Below are positions 43,166 to 50,384 of a DNA stretch of 64,000 nucleotides, in pieces. The notes under the pieces were generated by a model. It had not been told where the DNA came from, did no database searches, and saw only the letters and a list, made by a program, of their open reading frames with translations. Position 1 is the stretch's first letter; each line of letters opens with the position of its first letter. The position numbers and the translations under genes are program-made. Source of the DNA: Marinicella litoralis (GTDB lineage: Bacteria > Pseudomonadota > Gammaproteobacteria > Xanthomonadales > Marinicellaceae). The stretch is from contig NZ_NIHB01000001.1 in NCBI RefSeq assembly GCF_002591915.1, positions 349,805 to 413,804 of the forward strand, read 5' to 3'.

Positions 43166-46100
43166 TTATTTAGTTTCCACCTCTTTAGCTGCTTGTTTTT
43201 TGCGGTTAAATTTTGGCCACCAATCTTCTTTGTTTAAACTTAAGAATAAACACTTGAGCCAATTAATCACAGCAAAGCTGATCCAAATTGACCACAAGAG
43301 GATCAACAATTTATACCACCACAGGTGAACACTCAGTAAGGTGATGTTTGGCAATACATCAAGTCCCGAATCCAGATACCAGTACAATGTGGATGAAGAG
43401 GCGTTTTGTCCTGCGACACCCATATCAGGATATGACAGCAAGCCATAGGCCACTGTGGCGATCAAAACACCAATGGTGCCGATGGTGAAAAACACACTGA
43501 ACCATTGCAACAGAATGCGCTTGGCTCTTGAATCGAAGCCATTGAAATCTTGTTTCCAACCAACAAAAAATAGCCAACTGGCCACCACCGAAAAAGCCAG
43601 CCAAGAGAACGTTCCAAAGGCACAACCCAGTACCAACCATTGCCAAAACTTCAAAGGAGAATACTTGATGCGTGCCAAGAAGAAGGCCAGGACCGCAAAC
43701 ACCAATAATTCGCCCCAATACAGAAAGGCCGGGCCAACGCCTGCTGAATGACCCCATAGCAACCAACGATCACGCGGTACCTGTATGGTTTGGCTTAAAT
43801 TACTGAAATGGCTGTTCAGGTTGATGCTGGGCGTATGGTGCAAACTGCCTAATTCTTGGTTCACATGCCATTCAATACTGACCCGATGTGCGCCGGGTAA
43901 ATAACTCACTGCAACCACGCCGTCTTCATTGATTAAATTAGATTCAATGCCATCAAAAGTCACTTTTTTAACTTGAGCTTCAGGGTCCAGATTAATATCA
44001 AAGTGCCCGCCTTGAGTGGCACGGTACCTGATGTTGGTTTCCACTTTGGTGGTTCTTTTGCCCAGAGTATAGACGTTGCTGCTTGAATCAATGGACAGCA
44101 CATCGCCAGCGACCGCCTTGGGTCTGGTGATGTCCAGCTCTAAGGTCTCACCTGGTCTGGGCATATAGACGTGAACGAAATAATCATCGGCATCATCAAC
44201 CATGTTTTCCGAAGCCACCAATGGTACACCTGCTATGTTGACATGCCATTGTGGGGAGGTAATCACTTCCCAGGTTTCAATGTATTGTTCACTTTCACTG
44301 GCAATGAGTTGTAAATGAGGCACCCGCTCCAAACGTGAGCGCCAGTAAAATTCGAACTGATTGGGCCCCATGCTGACCATCACCGCGCCATGGTCGTCCA
44401 ACTGCACTTTTTCAGTTGGAAATTCTTGGTTCACCAAGGGCACGGTGACATTAATGACCCCTTGTTGGGGCGCCACTCGGCTCACCTGGGTTTGTATGTA
44501 CCATTGGTCATCAAAAGTAAGGCTGCGTTTGACTTTGACAAATGGTTTGATGTCAGTGGCATTGGCTTGTTCATTGGACTCTGCTTGGATGGTGGCAATC
44601 AATTGTAAAGTGTCACTGCTGAGTTGTTGTCCATCCAGTCCAGCAAATTGCCAATTTTCAGATTGTACTTTGACCTGCCCTGGTTTAAGTGGAAAGCGCA
44701 CTGATATGCTGTTGCGATTGGCCAGAACACCGGTTATCAGCACGTCATGAATACCCGCTTGTAACGACAACCAGTGTTTGTCCTGGAATTTCAGTCGACT
44801 GGATACGGCCAATTGATTGACCTTAACGGAGGTCAGGTACCAATCGGGTGAATCGGGCAGAGGCACCAGCACATCATCTAAGACGTGATACCGCAGGTTC
44901 ATTTCAAGTTGTTGATCCACCGCTTGGGCTTGAACTGATTCTATGGCCGCACAATGGGGGGCGCAAACAGAGGGCTGATACATGCGGTTTTTCAACTGCT
45001 CTAATAAATGCTCTGGCGGAAAGTTGTCAGCCAGCAGTGGGCTAGCAAACAGCAGCAACAGCATTGAGCCAAGTGCTGCTTTGGGTGTTGTTTTGTTTGA
45101 TTTGAATGACACGCGCATTTTCTGCAATAAAGCCAATAACCAATAGACCGAGGATAAGATCAACAACAACCGCCAAACCACGCGCATTGCGGGGCTGAGT
45201 AAAACCAATTGATAGCTCTGGTCGGCAGTGATCGGTCCGTCCCAAAATAAACTGACTGAATTGTATTGCCATTCAGGCGTGCCTTTGCCTGCTTGCAAGA
45301 CTGCATCGGCCTGGTATCGATTCAGTGTATCTGCCCTTTTGATTCTCGACCCAGTCACCGTGATTTTACCCTGTTCTTCGATCATGTCGGCTTGAATCGC
45401 GTTTTGGGTGTTGTAAGCTTGGGTGTACACTTGACTCAAGTCTTTGGCTTTTTTCACCGAGGAAGCAGGTGTTGGTGCAAAACTGGATGGTGATGGAAGG
45501 CTTCTTTCCAATTGTGGGTGGATCATTAATCTGGCTTGGGTGACCCAATGGGGCAACAAGACCGACAACAACCCCAATACACTGAGCAATGCATACACTT
45601 GGAATAAACCCAGCCACCGACCTTTGGGCAACCAAGCTATGATGGCAATGGCCACAATTAAATTGGCCCAGGCATACAACGGCATATTCAAACCATGATA
45701 ACCCAAGACCAGCGTGACAAATGCGGCCAAGGCCGATTTGATGCCAATCACTTTGAAACTCAAAACCGTCAGTAACATGACCACGAAAATATCCCACAAT
45801 CGCCATTTTTCAATCCATACATTGCGACTGTGATCGACATTGTGGGTGGCCAAAGCCATGTAACCATGAGGTAAATACAATTCAGTTCGGACTGAATCAA
45901 AATTGACTTGCCAACCACTGATTTGAGATAAAAATTCTTTGCTGAATTCGCCGTCTACCTGGAGGTCGATTTCAGGCTTGCGCAATTCCACACCTTGGTG
46001 CCCAGTATCAGATTCAGTAATCAATAATGTTTCATTGTGACTGCTGGCGCTCAATAAGCGGTGGTTGTCATCGGCATTCAAACGCCAACTGCCAAATTTC

Positions 46101-47203
46101 CCTCCAGTGATGTTGTCTTTGGTGCGATACACATCGCCAGAAAATGACAGCCAAGCACGTCGGTTTAGGCTCAATTGTTCACTTTGGTTTAAAGTGCCTC
46201 TTTTTTGTTCAATGATTTTGAAGGTATCACCCTCATTGACCAAATAATTGGGAACCTGGTTCCACAATGAGGAAGATTGTTCCGGATTGATTGCGGTGAC
46301 CCCTTCAATTTGGGTCAATCGGATGTTTTTATTGTCTTGATAGGCCCAAATTTCTTGTTTAGGCCAATGTTCCCCATCTGCTTTAAACTCAAGTTCATCA
46401 GGCCAGCCATTGACATTCATGCTGATGCGTACTTCGCTGTACCCCGGCTTGAGTTGTACCCAGAGTTCACCTTGTTGGTCAACATAGGCATTCAAGTCTC
46501 CAGCAACATCGGTAATTTGCAAGTAGGGCAACATAATCCGCCCTAAATTTTCACTGCGTGCGACACCAGAAACGCGCAGATCTATGGCCATAAATAAAGT
46601 CATGGGGTGGCCATCAATGATCAGTCGGTTGACTTCAATGTCCAAATTGTTCGCTTCAACTTGTTGTTCGTTGAATGCTTCACCCAACCACAAAGCATTG
46701 TTCTCACGCACTGGGAATTTAACTGAAACACCATCCAAAGTCAGGCTGATGTCAGACAACTCTGCCGGAATATTGATTTTTTCAGGACGGGTTTGCCAAC
46801 TGAATTGTCCGCTGACTTGATGCAACCCAACCGTGAGCCACAACCGTGGTTCTTGATTGTGCTTTTGGATGGCAGCGGGTTGTTGATTCAACAACACCTG
46901 TTGTGGCCAGGATGCTTGGTCACCAGGCAAAGGAATCCAACTGTCTGCAAGCACCTCCCAGGTCATTGAAAAAGCAGCCTGATTTGAATCCACATTGAAC
47001 TTCAGGGTTTGTGGCCAGGCACAGACATGGTTGTTCTTGATGCCAGATTTTTGATTTGAAAAATAGGGGCAATCACGAAAAGCTTGGTCATGTTTTACCC
47101 AATCCTGCCATTGAGCCAACTCTGGCGGAACCTCCGCAGCGGTTGATTGAAAACCCAACATCAACTGTAATAACAACCCAATCAACAAAAACATGTCTTT
47201 CAT
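43166..47203 (-). CDS. Very large membrane protein with duplicated architecture and a TonB-receptor-like VTGSRIKR segment
   Basis: The 1345-aa protein has a signal peptide (about 1-22), a periplasmic beta-rich domain (to about 455), a cluster of membrane helices (about 465-550), a linker carrying GKITVTGSRIKRAD around residues 610-625, another helix (about 675-700), then a second signal-like stretch (MLLLLFASPLLADNFPP) and a second periplasmic domain similar to the first (VPLPDSPDWYLTS versus IPLPGDQASWPQ; WLSLQAGIHDVLITG versus WLTVGLHQVSGQF), ending with about six further helices. It looks like a fusion of two related membrane proteins. I do not recognise a named family or function. It reads upstream of kynU with 109 bp between. 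Confidence 0.8.
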   Translation of the reverse strand: MKDMFLLIGLLLQLMLGFQSTAAEVPPELAQWQDWVKHDQAFRDCPYFSNQKSGIKNNHVCAWPQTLKFNVDSNQAAFSMTWEVLADSWIPLPGDQASWPQQVLLNQQPAAIQKHNQEPRLWLTVGLHQVSGQFSWQTRPEKINIPAELSDISLTLDGVSVKFPVRENNALWLGEAFNEQQVEANNLDIEVNRLIIDGHPMTLFMAIDLRVSGVARSENLGRIMLPYLQITDVAGDLNAYVDQQGELWVQLKPGYSEVRISMNVNGWPDELEFKADGEHWPKQEIWAYQDNKNIRLTQIEGVTAINPEQSSSLWNQVPNYLVNEGDTFKIIEQKRGTLNQSEQLSLNRRAWLSFSGDVYRTKDNITGGKFGSWRLNADDNHRLLSASSHNETLLITESDTGHQGVELRKPEIDLQVDGEFSKEFLSQISGWQVNFDSVRTELYLPHGYMALATHNVDHSRNVWIEKWRLWDIFVVMLLTVLSFKVIGIKSALAAFVTLVLGYHGLNMPLYAWANLIVAIAIIAWLPKGRWLGLFQVYALLSVLGLLSVLLPHWVTQARLMIHPQLERSLPSPSSFAPTPASSVKKAKDLSQVYTQAYNTQNAIQADMIEEQGKITVTGSRIKRADTLNRYQADAVLQAGKGTPEWQYNSVSLFWDGPITADQSYQLVLLSPAMRVVWRLLLILSSVYWLLALLQKMRVSFKSNKTTPKAALGSMLLLLFASPLLADNFPPEHLLEQLKNRMYQPSVCAPHCAAIESVQAQAVDQQLEMNLRYHVLDDVLVPLPDSPDWYLTSVKVNQLAVSSRLKFQDKHWLSLQAGIHDVLITGVLANRNSISVRFPLKPGQVKVQSENWQFAGLDGQQLSSDTLQLIATIQAESNEQANATDIKPFVKVKRSLTFDDQWYIQTQVSRVAPQQGVINVTVPLVNQEFPTEKVQLDDHGAVMVSMGPNQFEFYWRSRLERVPHLQLIASESEQYIETWEVITSPQWHVNIAGVPLVASENMVDDADDYFVHVYMPRPGETLELDITRPKAVAGDVLSIDSSSNVYTLGKRTTKVETNIRYRATQGGHFDINLDPEAQVKKVTFDGIESNLINEDGVVAVSYLPGAHRVSIEWHVNQELGSLHHTPSINLNSHFSNLSQTIQVPRDRWLLWGHSAGVGPAFLYWGELLVFAVLAFFLARIKYSPLKFWQWLVLGCAFGTFSWLAFSVVASWLFFVGWKQDFNGFDSRAKRILLQWFSVFFTIGTIGVLIATVAYGLLSYPDMGVAGQNASSSTLYWYLDSGLDVLPNITLLSVHLWWYKLLILLWSIWISFAVINWLKCLFLSLNKEDWWPKFNRKKQAAKEVETK

Positions 47204-47436
47204 AAAATCACCTTAACTATCAGATTATTTGTGGCCTTTGAACAATCATGATAACCATCATTGGATTGAAATACCATTAAATCGATGTTTCACCTCTCGC
47301 CATCATCACTGCAAGGGTGTATTCCAGAGATGTATGGAACAATCTCTCAGGGCACCTTTTGAACAACGGCTTGAGATTTGATGAAATAATCAATGCCTCA
47401 AATTCCTAAACAAGTTAAAATCCACCACTCAATCCC
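47204..47436. other. Intergenic region before the tRNA array
   Basis: The left part should hold the promoter for the 1345-aa gene on the minus strand. The right part, 47311-47356, resembles the 3' end of the insertion-plus-tRNA units further right (gatgtatggaacaatctctc then agggca), listed as a repeat remnant. Confidence 0.5.
47311..47356 (+). repeat. Remnant of the hairpin element joined to a tRNA-Arg 3' end
   Basis: The stretch begins with gcaagg as in the element's tail and ends in aatctctcagggca, one mismatch from the T-stem/acceptor 3' strand of the intact tRNA-Arg. The 5' part of the tRNA is gone. Confidence 0.6.
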
Positions 47437-47699
47437 GCGCCCATAGCTCAGCTGGATAGCGTAGGCTTTAGAGGTTCGTTTGCCTTCTTTGTTGCGGAGC
47501 AACAAAACCGGCTGCACTCACAAATGGGTTGATAAAATAAAAACCGGTTGGTCGGGAGTTCGATTGAATTGTTGGGAAAAATTCAACCCGTTGGCTTGCC
47601 AACGACCCCGCAGGGGCGAAGTGCAAGGGTTGTTAGCTACCGCATCCTGCTCTCGCTAATCACTAACATCCATATAAGCGCGAAGTAATCTCTCTGGGC
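47437..47699 (+). pseudogene. tRNA-Arg(TCG) copy 1, interrupted by hairpin-bearing insertions
   Basis: The acceptor and D-arm (47437-47463) match the intact gene at 48086 except for one base in the D-stem. After position 26 comes about 43 bp with an exact 8-bp hairpin (tttgttgc, gga, gcaacaaa; 47488-47506), then an accggct like the 5' anticodon stem, then about 28 bp in place of the anticodon, then accggttggtcgggagttcga (3' anticodon arm, variable loop and T-stem) at 47543-47563. A third insertion of about 124 bp, with the hairpins cgttgg/ccaacg and cccc/gggg, splits the T-loop before atctctctgggc (47688-47699). The anticodon is lost, so it cannot be a normal tRNA gene. Confidence 0.75.
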
Positions 47700-47784
47700 A
47701 AATTCCTGATAAGGGGTTCTTTAAGAGATATCAAACATTCCACTTGTACTCATTTAATAACCCGTTAAAATACATCACTCCAAT

Positions 47785-48000
47785 GCGCCCATAGCTCAGC
47801 TGGATAGAGTAGGCTTTAGTGGTTCGTTTGCCTTCTTTGTTGCGGAGCAACAAAACCGGCTGCACTCACAAATGGGTTGATAAAATAAAAACCGGTTGGT
47901 CGTGAGTTCGATTGAATTGTCGGGAACAAATCAACCCGTTGGCTCGCCAACGACCCCGCAGGGGCGAAGTGCAAGGATGCACGAAGTAATCTCTCTGGGC
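47785..48000 (+). pseudogene. tRNA-Arg(TCG) copy 2, interrupted at the same sites
   Basis: Copy 2 has the same order as copy 1: acceptor/D-arm (47785-47811), insertion with the same tttgttgc hairpin, accggct, insertion in the anticodon, 3' anticodon arm and T-stem (with one changed base), and a shorter T-loop insertion with cgttgg/ccaacg and cccc/gggg hairpins, then the 3' acceptor strand at 47989-48000. Its D-stem is the intact gagt. It differs from copy 1 by isolated substitutions and by lack of a 46-bp segment in the T-loop insertion, showing that the two copies diverged after duplication. Confidence 0.75.
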
Positions 48001-48044
48001 AAACTCCTGATAAGGGGTTCTTTAAGAGATATCAAACATTCCAC

Positions 48045-48072
48045 TTGTACTCATTTAATAACCCGTTAAAAT
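48045..48072 (+). promoter_or_regulatory. Promoter of the intact tRNA-Arg gene
   Basis: TTGTAC at 48045-48050 and TAAAAT at 48067-48072 are separated by 16 bp and end 13 bp before the tRNA, a normal arrangement for a sigma-70 tRNA promoter. The same boxes precede copy 2. Confidence 0.7.
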
Positions 48073-48085
48073 ACATCACTCCAAT

Positions 48086-48162
48086 GCGCCCATAGCTCAG
48101 CTGGATAGAGTAACCGGCTTCGAACCGGTTGGTCGGGAGTTCGAATCTCTCTGGGCGCGCCA
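48086..48162 (+). tRNA. tRNA-Arg (anticodon TCG), 77 nt with encoded CCA
   Basis: The full cloverleaf can be drawn: acceptor GCGCCCA/TGGGCGC (7 perfect pairs), D-stem GCTC/GAGT, anticodon stem ACCGG/CCGGT with loop CTTCGAA (anticodon TCG, reading CGA), T-arm GGGAG-TTCGAAT-CTCTC, discriminator G and CCA. It is the only complete tRNA in the window and is preceded by its own promoter and followed by a terminator. Two interrupted copies lie just upstream. Confidence 0.95.
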
Positions 48163-48170
48163 AATACAAA

Positions 48171-48196
48171 AAGTCATCCTCGGATGGCTTTTTTTA
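48171..48196 (+). terminator. Rho-independent terminator of tRNA-Arg
   Basis: aagtcatcc/ggatggctt (one G-T pair, loop tc) ends in a T-run, 8 bp after the CCA end. Confidence 0.9.
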
Positions 48197-48256
48197 TTTC
48201 TCTTGCACAGAGAATGAAAGCTTCCTTAGTTCGACTAAAATGACAGGATCATTTTA

Positions 48257-48329
48257 GCCCGTTGGCCTGCCAACGACCCCGCAGGGGTGGAATACATGGA
48301 TGTATGGAACAACCTCTCTAGTCGCGCCA
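48257..48329 (+). repeat. Isolated hairpin element with tRNA-Arg 3'-end remnant
   Basis: This 73-bp unit repeats the cgttgg-cctg-ccaacg and cccc-gca-gggg hairpins (48260-48287) seen in the T-loop insertions, then gatgtatggaac, and ends with aacctctctagtcgcgcca (48311-48329), which differs at few positions from the 3' end of the intact tRNA including its CCA. The tRNA 5' part is missing. Loop bases differ between copies (cttg, ctcg, cctg) while the stems stay perfect. Confidence 0.7.
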
Positions 48330-48443
48330 CCTCATCTGTCTAAGCTAAAGTGTTCTGAGGGTTGTCCATTAAACTGGACCATTGTGATCAATAGACAGGG
48401 GCTTTGATGACAACCAAAGCGTTATTTCTATTCAGATAGGGTA

Positions 48444-48767
48444 CTAATTGGCTGATTGATTTAAATAGGGCATTAATTGGCTGCCCGTGATTTGGTGTTG
48501 ATCCACCAAGCACATGCGGATGCTGTTTGAGATGGTAATCCTGGCACAACAATATATGTCGTCGCTTGAAATATAGGCTTCAAAAGCATGCTCATTAAAA
48601 CTGGAATCGTGCAACAAGTCTTTAGGGATCCATACCACTTGGTCGGTACCACACAGTTTGAACAAATAATCATCCAAACATTCTCCCAGCCATTGGTCTT
48701 TGCATAAAGTGACTGTATAGGGTTTTTTGCAATCCATTATGGGTGTGATATTTTGTATGACTGTCAT
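48444..48767 (-). CDS. Hypothetical protein, 107 aa
   Basis: The 107-aa protein starts at the ATG at 48767, which has an AAAGGA ribosome binding site (an in-frame GTG eight codons upstream has none). It is soluble, with several Cys residues and a QWLGECLDDYLFKLCG stretch; I do not recognise the family. The last codons sit in an imperfect tandem duplication of about 26 bp (roughly 48420-48472), in which the second unit is read in another frame, so the present C-terminus was probably created by that duplication. Confidence 0.55.
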   Translation of the reverse strand: MTVIQNITPIMDCKKPYTVTLCKDQWLGECLDDYLFKLCGTDQVVWIPKDLLHDSSFNEHAFEAYISSDDIYCCARITISNSIRMCLVDQHQITGSQLMPYLNQSAN

Positions 48768-48827
48768 TTTTAAGTTCCTTTGAAAAGTCACTGGCCCAAT
48801 ACATGATTGGGCCAGTGTGGTCTTTTT

Positions 48828-50384
48828 TTATTGTAGTAAAGCCGATAAATAAACGGTGCTGCCTTGTTTGATTTCAATCAATTGATTCAATGGATCAAAA
48901 TCTAACAGCAATTTTCCGGGTTCTACAGGGTCTCTGAATTCAAGTTCTGTTTCATCAGTGTTGACATCAAATGAGGTGATGACTTGTCCACCAACCACCA
49001 ATTGATAAGTGCCCAATGTCAGGTCTTCAACTTCAACTTTAAAGTCTCTGCGGTCAGTACGTACTTCGTAGTCCACTGAACCGCTGGCATCAGCATCTAC
49101 ACCGGTATTGGTAAAATCAACATCTATCTCTATTTGCTGGTTATTTCCACCACCGCCACCAGTGTCACCACCATTGTTTCCACCGCCTGGTGTTTCGGGA
49201 AAGTTAACAGTGAAAAGAAGGTCTGATCCCTGGGTCACAGTCAACAAAGCACCCAGTGGATTGAAGTCGAGTAATTCTTTACCTGCTTCAATGGGATTAC
49301 GAAATTCAAGTTCGCCTTCTGCACCCGTTGGGGTTTGGACCACTTCAACCACACCTTGAATGACGCCATCAACGTTAAAATCATAAAAGCCCAAAGGGAC
49401 GTCTTCGAGTTCTATTTGAAAATCAACTCGATCGGCACGTTGTTTGAGTTCTGCTTTCGCTTGGCCCAATGGAATGATGCCAGTGTTGGTCATGTATATT
49501 TCTGTTTCACTGTCACCAAAAGGTGGTGCATTCTGACTGCTGTTGCCTCCATTGTTACCGCCTGAGGTACTGCCTTCTGATGTGAGGTAAACCAAACCAT
49601 TTTGGGTGATGTCAATGATTTGATTATGTGGGTTGAAATCCAATAATAATTTACCAGGTTCTACGGGGTCTCTGAACTCTATTTCACCTTCTGTGGATCC
49701 ACCTGTTAGGGTAACGACTTCAATGTCACCTTTGAATTCGTCACCGACAAACAACTGATAAATGCCCACAGGTAAGTCTTCAATTTCAACGGAATAATCT
49801 ATTCGATCAGTGCGTTGTTCATATTTGGTCTTGCCATTGGCATCTGCATCTAAACCAGTCGATAACAAAGGAGTGATGATCTCTGTTTCTGTGATGGTGT
49901 CACCCAGCTCATCAAACCATCCACCGGTACAGTTGAGGTTATTAATGATTGTATTTCTGGTTACTGGCATAGAACCTGCATTGAAACCAGAAGCCGTTGG
50001 GTTCCAACTGACTGTGCCATTGTTGCAGTCTGTGAAGTTGAATTGAACTTCGCCCCATGGGGTGTTAGATATGTTGTTGGGATCATGTAAATCACCAAAT
50101 TGACCACCTTCTGGAACAATCATTTGGAAATTGATGGATTGACCTGTGATCTCACCCACGCCAATTAACCAATATTGATTCCCATCGGTATCAAAAGTAA
50201 ACCAAGTGGTCAGTGCCATCTTCTGGTTATTGCTTTTAATGATTTCCAGTAAAAAACCTTGGCCGTTTTTCGCTGGGTCATACCAGCCGCCTGTAAAGCT
50301 TTTGGTGATAATTAAGTTATTGGCCTGAACCCATGAGGTGGCCATCATTATTAATATATAGATAAATGCTTTTGTTGTTTTCAT
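48828..50384 (-). CDS. Secreted protein with three tandem beta-rich repeats
   Basis: The 518-aa protein has a signal peptide (about 1-21), an N-terminal domain (about 22-160) with GGWYDPAKNGQGFLLEI and WFTFDTDGNQYWLIG, and then three repeats of about 100 residues. Each repeat contains a NTG...D or R block (TNTGVDADASG), YE.RTDR.D(F/Y).VE(V/I)EDL, then GTYQLVVG and EFRDP.EPGKLLLDF.P. Gly/Asn-rich linkers separate repeats 2 and 3. It looks like an extracellular or envelope beta-sandwich protein. I do not recognise a named family. It stands alone on the minus strand. Confidence 0.78.
   Translation of the reverse strand: MKTTKAFIYILIMMATSWVQANNLIITKSFTGGWYDPAKNGQGFLLEIIKSNNQKMALTTWFTFDTDGNQYWLIGVGEITGQSINFQMIVPEGGQFGDLHDPNNISNTPWGEVQFNFTDCNNGTVSWNPTASGFNAGSMPVTRNTIINNLNCTGGWFDELGDTITETEIITPLLSTGLDADANGKTKYEQRTDRIDYSVEIEDLPVGIYQLFVGDEFKGDIEVVTLTGGSTEGEIEFRDPVEPGKLLLDFNPHNQIIDITQNGLVYLTSEGSTSGGNNGGNSSQNAPPFGDSETEIYMTNTGIIPLGQAKAELKQRADRVDFQIELEDVPLGFYDFNVDGVIQGVVEVVQTPTGAEGELEFRNPIEAGKELLDFNPLGALLTVTQGSDLLFTVNFPETPGGGNNGGDTGGGGGNNQQIEIDVDFTNTGVDADASGSVDYEVRTDRRDFKVEVEDLTLGTYQLVVGGQVITSFDVNTDETELEFRDPVEPGKLLLDFDPLNQLIEIKQGSTVYLSALLQ

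Follow-up and report, generated by a model that had tools for sequence, protein, structure and literature searches.

Beside an intact tRNA-Arg(TCG) gene, the DNA analyzed here carries a locally duplicated and partly decayed set of chimeras between that tRNA and a tRNA-linked repeat (TLR; RtT in Rfam), with a second repeat lodged inside them. The window, meaning the whole stretch of 64,000 nt that was analyzed, comes from Marinicella litoralis (assembly GCF_002591915.1, NZ_NIHB01000001.1, positions 349,805-413,804, forward strand; labeled G000:C1:349805-413804). A preliminary description had reported an intact tRNA-Arg gene next to two tandem copies cut at three matching points by hairpin-bearing insertions, an observation that is real but was misread, being only partly confirmed, and whose interpretation is partly supported. 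The intact gene was recovered by ARAGORN and Rfam, and the sequence itself confirms the two tandem split copies with perfect hairpins (47437-47699 and 47785-48000), in which the tRNA pieces are parted by foreign sequence. Instead of three insertions, only two elements are present: element A is a single element that spans the first and second “cuts” (about 47464-47542 and 47812-47890), and element B is the third, placed in the T-loop. B is the body of the TLR, a four-hairpin RNA module of about 80 nt. Using R1, a covariance model of B built without E. coli sequences, and R2, a sequence-only model of A, the following features were delimited.

47263..47346, plus strand: degenerate B-like remnant upstream of the array (R1, 18.0 bits, E 4.5e-4)
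47437..47463, plus strand: copy 1, tRNA-Arg 5′ part (acceptor 5′ strand and D arm), by sequence; within repeat D1, shared with copy 2
47464..47542, plus strand: copy 1, element A replacing the 5′ half of the anticodon arm (R2, 53.7 bits at G000:C1:397275-397329, i.e., window 47471-47525; borders by eye)
47543..47563, plus strand: copy 1, 3′ half of the anticodon stem, variable loop, T-stem 5′ strand and TTCGA, by sequence
47564..47687, plus strand: copy 1, element B (TLR/RtT body) in the T-loop (R1 at 47561-47692, 75.5 bits; predicted fold)
47688..47699, plus strand: copy 1, T-stem 3′ strand and truncated acceptor 3′ strand without CCA, by sequence
47700..47784, plus strand: spacer that takes in the tRNA upstream region and recurs ahead of the intact gene (repeat D3, 134 nt, 99%)
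47785..47811, plus strand: copy 2, tRNA-Arg 5′ part, by sequence and repeat comparison
47812..47890, plus strand: copy 2, element A (R2, 54.5 bits at G000:C1:397623-397677, i.e., window 47819-47873; borders by eye)
47891..47911, plus strand: copy 2, 3′ half of the anticodon stem to TTCGA, by sequence
47912..47988, plus strand: copy 2, element B; the loops of hairpins 1 (cggga) and 4 (agga) contain GGA (R1 at 47909-47993, 103.1 bits; predicted fold)
47989..48000, plus strand: copy 2, T-stem 3′ strand and truncated acceptor without CCA, by sequence
48086..48162, plus strand: intact tRNA-Arg(TCG) (ARAGORN; Rfam RF00005, 66.3 bits)
48168-48193: terminator-like hairpin 3′ of the intact tRNA-Arg and before the third B (window scan)
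48235..48311, plus strand: third element B, downstream of the tRNA-Arg and the terminator-like hairpin (R1 at 48232-48316, 97.7 bits; GGA in two predicted hairpin loops)
48312..48329, plus strand: diverged copy of the tRNA 3′ end, acctctctagtcgcgcca, after the third B as in the TLR layout (about 19 nt, 3 mismatches; sequence, by eye)

Three B bodies thus lie less than 550 nt from the tRNA-Arg gene in the window (R1; ARAGORN). Read against the intact gene, copy 2 consists of 27 nt of tRNA, the 79-nt A, 21 nt of tRNA, the 77-nt B and then ATCTCTCTGGGC. Copy 1 follows the same plan, with about 47 extra nt that break hairpin 4 of its B, and its predicted fold also lacks the usual loop of hairpin 1. 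Both split copies end with 12 nt of the T-arm side, after which the sequence is diverged and the CCA is missing. With no CCA and the anticodon arm destroyed, they cannot yield a normal tRNA. The two copies share 96% identity over 192 nt (D1), and the spacer with the tRNA upstream region 99% over 134 nt (D3); they are tandem duplicates with a unit of approximately 300 to 350 bp. Their insertions match in position because of this duplication and are therefore not independent events. Consequently, the earlier argument, which took related hairpins at matching sites as evidence against simple decay, does not apply to these two copies, although it holds across genomes and tRNA kinds. The claim that the spacers contain promoters fared less well, as a consensus scan of 47300-48400 returned a single site, upstream of neither copy, where 1.3 are expected; TTGTAC-16-TAAAAT, found before copy 2 and before the intact gene, is promoter-like by eye reading only.

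A duplicated tRNA-Arg might simply have been hit by two dispersed repeats before the whole was duplicated in tandem, leaving a locus without function. This plain decay, which we regard as rather unlikely, is favored by the tandem duplication at 96 to 99%, by the broken hairpin 4 of copy 1, by the lost CCA and anticodon arm, and by folding energies that do not differ significantly from those of shuffled sequences (z of -1.4 for copy 2, -1.2 for a G013 copy and 0 for the B of copy 1). It also agrees with the tRNA-Arg loci of G017, G016, G008, G010, and G004, in which no upstream tRNA-Arg copies were seen by eye in the 600 nt inspected. However, T-loop chimeras of the same tRNA-Arg do occur in six other genomes, namely, G007 (88% over 211 nt), G003, G013, G011, G006, and G012, with B stems that covary, and GGA is kept in two predicted loops of both the copy 2 B and the downstream B of the window.

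Two further observations concern this tRNA in other genomes. Phage- or island-type integrase-like reading frames were seen by eye directly 3′ of tRNA-Arg(TCG) in G007 (L026, from about 1540) and G003 (L027, from about 1660), which suggests that integration, too, takes place at this tRNA. Three B-like matches in tandem, two of them 77 bp apart, lie 3′ of tRNA-Arg in G002 (L032 476-712, minus strand).

Element A is a dispersed repeat found in the genus and also in G033, which belongs to another family; it was detected in 17 of 41 genomes, the source genome included (R2, sequence-only model). It also follows the 5′ part of tRNA-Arg in G007, G003, G012, and G005. In copies found without a tRNA (G017, G016, and G033), the core resembles CTTCCCTTCTTT-hairpin-AAAACCGGCT with a 3′ end near CCAACCG, and A is sometimes arranged in tandem with a period near 106 to 110. 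ACCGGCT, the motif around which the second cut had been placed, recurs in most of these tRNA-free copies; it is part of A and matches the tRNA anticodon stem by coincidence, and this match may have guided recombination. Rfam gave no match at E up to 0.5 for the A loci L035 and L042-L045, and no match to A was found in plasmids. Head-to-tail A arrays of about 106 to 108 bp, with no tRNA seen nearby, were observed at L035 980-1900 and G003:C1:435479-435749. In G033, a B-like stretch lies between A pieces (L043 850-950, minus strand; by eye), and A and B therefore meet outside tRNA genes too.

Further copies of B were found in the source genome and its relatives, and their stems covary. R1 detected B in 52 of 61 genomes (E ≤ 0.1) and in 57 of 143 class genomes drawn evenly, those listed each coming from another family (E ≤ 1e-3), the source genome being included in both counts. 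Within the source genome, 8 of 10 R1 matches are at a tRNA or tmRNA (nine positions are listed, and the tenth was taken as L080:515-588). Double changes occur in 22 of 24 stem pairs over 115 distinct rows, with 631 cells compared to 178 in shuffles, in an alignment fitted to the model; a MAFFT alignment of 10 hand-picked sequences, from which the structure itself was drawn, gave 30 cells compared to 10. The loci were chosen from the best R1 matches among those listed, and hits are not independent, many being shared by descent or tandem copying. The Rfam RtT model (RF00391) matched nothing in window 45000-50000, even with E allowed up to 1; it exceeds its gathering cutoff in 2 of 15 loci, L086 (49.3) and L075 (46.8), and in none of 20 class loci. 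RF02902 matches 48226-48325 at 27.4 bits, below its cutoff.

Although built without them, R1 matches the E. coli tyrT repeats at 36.1 (the annotated rttR), 34.3, 30.9, and 13.3 bits, and, at 41.8 bits (E 2.8e-15), the repeat that follows rrfB and is identified as RrB by position. First described in 1978, for tandem repeats next to the E. coli tRNA-Tyr gene, TLRs number 22 in ten E. coli loci, and the last 18 to 19 bp of each are the same as the end of the tRNA or rRNA that precedes it, according to the available text of PMC8144298, which also notes that the tyrT phenotype claim was retracted and in 2021 still describes the family as without known function. The body in the tyrT operon is homologous to B by R1 and shares its T-arm junction, GGTTCGA...AATCC; the T-loop site in the window is this same TLR junction. 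Like the array studied here, RtT forms tandem arrays of varying number, such as the 175-bp rtT variable-number tandem repeat of Salmonella in the consulted part of PMC2658671. Unlike in E. coli, the body also occupies T-, D-, and anticodon loops here, within tRNA copies that are almost complete. RtT-family small RNAs adjacent to tRNAs also include Arrc20 and Arrc21 of Actinobacillus, with expression reported by RT-PCR and Northern blotting, and AaHKsRNA22 (RF02902); the available text of PMC4986893 does not mention loop insertions for them. Dispersed hairpin elements of other kinds, such as REP/BIME and rtT-like attenuator elements, resemble B in this respect, and rtT-like BIMEs are reported upstream of enterobacterial genes in the portions of PMC2965389 and PMC12306157 consulted; B differs in its defined four-hairpin fold and in the many bodies found in tRNA loops.

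The position of B relative to tRNA genes was determined for 167 distinct R1 hits, a link being an intact gene on the same strand within 1.2 kb. This set leaves out eight class loci without a tRNA (L165, L166, L169, L171, L173, L181, L183, and L187), six near-identical copies in G181, class loci already represented by other entries, and bodies added later. An intact tRNA or tmRNA was linked to 115 of the 167 hits (115 of 175 with the eight omitted loci restored), leaving 52 without a same-strand tRNA (60 of 175). Both flanks of the body match the gene at a single point in 94 of these 115 cases, compared to 17 of 277 positions drawn at random from these loci, a match requiring at least 14 of 18 letters and some of the random positions being possibly other B copies. 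The insertion points of the 94 bodies are in the T-loop in 68 (Arg, Ser, Gln, Glu, Pro, Tyr, Val, and tmRNA), in the D-loop in 18 (Ser), and in the anticodon loop in 8 (Ser CGA, GGA, and TGA). The usual junction is YGA^A; T-loop insertions follow A58, and the B of the window is at TTCGA^A. Ninety-four bodies are in the tRNA sense and one, a borderline case (14 of 18), is antisense. Among the class loci, 19 of 29 have a tRNA or tmRNA, the nearest one within 300 nt being on the same strand in 17 and on the opposite strand in 1 (L182, whose flanks match a same-strand tRNA-Glu). When B lies 3′ of the gene, 17 to 19 nt of that gene's 3′ end directly follow it in 11 of 15 class loci. A closing-stem test of left against right flanks gave a weak difference over 14 TLR loci (mean of 9.4 for own pairs and 7.5 for swapped ones). 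In genus, order, and class alike, many bodies thus lie beside tRNA genes or exactly in loops of extra tRNA copies, in the tRNA sense. Given such insertions across tRNA kinds and genomes, the window array is one case of a wide pattern, with a distant parallel in G078, where the intact tRNA-Ser(CGA) gene follows three 217-bp units of that tRNA that contain B in the anticodon loop. Insertions of B within loops of extra tRNA copies were not found in the open-licence literature in the parts consulted, older primary papers lying outside that scope. A tRNA intron was also considered and rejected, as excision by script restored a tRNA recognized by ARAGORN in only 5 of 120 hits, the type of one being unclear, and never did so for the copies in the window.

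Two TLR bodies with T-arm flanks are found 3′ of the tmRNA gene of the source genome (G000:C12:275143-275443; L081 844-1144). In G181, seven near-identical B bodies (L198-L204) each occupy the center of a dispersed repeat some 300 bp long, of which B is the best-conserved part, with no tRNA in the 1-kb stretches. A subfamily without T-, D-, or anticodon-loop flanks (L066, L089-L092, L094-L096, L103-L106, and similar) often ends in GAATAAA and has similar flanks in different species of the genus.

The preliminary description had proposed small mobile hairpin elements with a preference for tRNA arms. The precise siting in loops bears this out in part, yet no linked transposase was found and YGAA lies in loops anyway, in 97 of its 104 occurrences within tRNAs (by approximate position windows), so that the loop preference is not independent of the motif. 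B could then be a small nonautonomous mobile element, site specific at YGA^A and moved, for example, by an HUH/Y1 transposase acting on single-stranded DNA, with loops being merely where the motif occurs. We find this improbable. It would account for the single-point flank matches, for the 52 hits without a nearby same-strand tRNA, and for the near-identical dispersed copies of G181, and Y1 transposases are present in 12 of 18 genus genomes. However, TTCGAA is its own reverse complement, so insertion into the T-loop at the DNA level should go both ways, in conflict with the 94 sense and 1 antisense orientations. Neither does the source genome contain a Y1_Tnp match, and the 20 regions holding 23 of the 26 genus Y1 matches include one B and no A. 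The covarying stems and the fixed loop GGA point instead to selection on RNA. An origin from RAYT/REP was set aside as weak for the same lack of a transposase linked to the copies.

Structured RNAs derived from tRNAs and having a new role were the other option raised. A role at the RNA level is likely, since B belongs to the known TLR/RtT family and combines covarying stems with conserved GGA loops; this role is probably shared with the published E. coli homologue rather than new. Among the 115 distinct alignment rows, GGA is present in loop 1 in 113, in loop 4 (including the closing pair) in 110, and in both in 109, compared to 12 in loop 2 and none in loop 3. Loop 1 is mostly CNGGA and loop 4 AGGAN or ATGGAT. 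GGA occupies both expected places in 160 of 167 hits and in 476 of 3,340 shuffles, with the provisos that R1 itself includes the GGA letters and that E. coli copies without GGA still score 31 to 36 bits. In copy 1 of the window, the first GGA is kept in the sequence only. Such conservation in the first and last hairpin loops was not found in the open-licence literature in the parts consulted, older primary papers again being outside this scope; the loop insertions in tRNA copies and the GGA pair conserved over many families are the new additions made here.

The motif for CsrA is GGA within the loop of a hairpin, and E. coli RrB binds CsrA in vitro, the shift being lost on changing three of five GGA, including the two placed in loops by the authors, as described in the available text of PMC8144298. 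Like B, RrB has GGA in loops 1 and 4 of its predicted fold, with a further one in loop 3. RrA, RrB, and RrF are TLRs 3′ of E. coli 5S rRNA and are linked to rRNA, whereas B is linked to tRNA. The same text holds these three to be unique among TLRs in their affinity for CsrA, the other 19 E. coli TLRs having prediction scores below 0.01, and reports modest in vivo effects in the same direction for deletion and overexpression. CsrB, CsrC, RsmY, and RsmZ are decoy RNAs with GGA in several hairpin loops, compared to only two sites per B body; the CsrB and RsmZ models gave weak subthreshold matches and none over the cutoff in 18 genus genomes. Three of the four E. coli tyrT bodies lack GGA, in contrast to the conserved loops found here. 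These bodies would suit a different target, in which B in the T-loop gives a processed chimeric tRNA-like RNA that acts on tRNA-processing enzymes, a synthetase, or Hfq rather than on CsrA. The sense orientation, the tRNA 3′ end carried by TLR units, and the Hfq interaction published for RrA, RrB, and RrF (in the same partial text of PMC8144298) are consistent with such a target, but 109 of 115 rows retain the GGA pair amid freely varying stems, and we consider this alternative a poor prospect.

A csrA gene is present in 15 of 18 genus genomes, including the source genome (C12:296327-296482). In 11 genomes (G000, G001, G002, G004, G009, G012, G013, G015, G042, G057, and G185), it is a close 5′ neighbor of B bodies on the same strand. 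The site is tRNA-Ser(GCT) in ten of them; in G057 it is the end of a contig, where the flank is D-loop-like and the locus contains no tRNA. By coordinates, csrA also precedes B within 650 nt in G006, G074, G121, G149, and G192, and it has the opposite orientation in G030. In the source genome, two B bodies were observed in the D-loop of tandem 5′ copies of tRNA-Ser(GCT), between csrA and the intact tRNA-Ser (G000:C12:295772-296009; L082). Since csrA beside tRNA-Ser is a common gene order in gammaproteobacteria, this adjacency may be incidental. Among the class genomes, csrA and B co-occur no better than by chance, csrA being found in 49 of 57 genomes with B and in 71 of 86 without it (p 0.65, the same draw being assumed), and csrA adjoins B in at least 6 of the 49 with both, among the matches listed. 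The idea that B is found only together with csrA was dropped, as 8 of the 57 B-positive genomes gave no csrA hit (G068, G072, G097, G128, G135, G152, G158, and G182, the last inferred). Seven of these assemblies are 73 to 96% complete and that of G072 is 100% complete; in the six other than G097 and G135, both GGA are kept in all bodies seen but one (G128).

On balance, we lean toward the B body being a small two-site CsrA decoy RNA that rides on tRNA transcription. The body would be transcribed with or like the tRNA, the first and last hairpins, each with a loop GGA, would bind CsrA, and the dose of decoy would follow tRNA transcription and array length. As a working guess, the TTCGA/AATC ends that body and tRNA share may allow entry into tRNA loops through recombination or gene conversion acting locally, given that the 3′ end of the unit's own tRNA is present in most of the downstream units inspected. 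More speculatively, and at somewhat less than even chances, CsrA binding could be the ancestral job of the whole TLR family, with two-site decoys in tRNA loops across much of the Gammaproteobacteria, including just behind csrA, through which tRNA transcription would tune CsrA, and with the E. coli tyrT repeats as degenerate exceptions. The sharp rule of YGA^A in tRNA loops and tRNA sense is one that any account of TLR spread must explain. Stems that change freely around GGA fixed in the same two loops, in many families and kinds of tRNA, point to a specific function for the TLR family that is cheap to test and that, if true, would tie tRNA transcription, and hence growth rate, to the Csr system.
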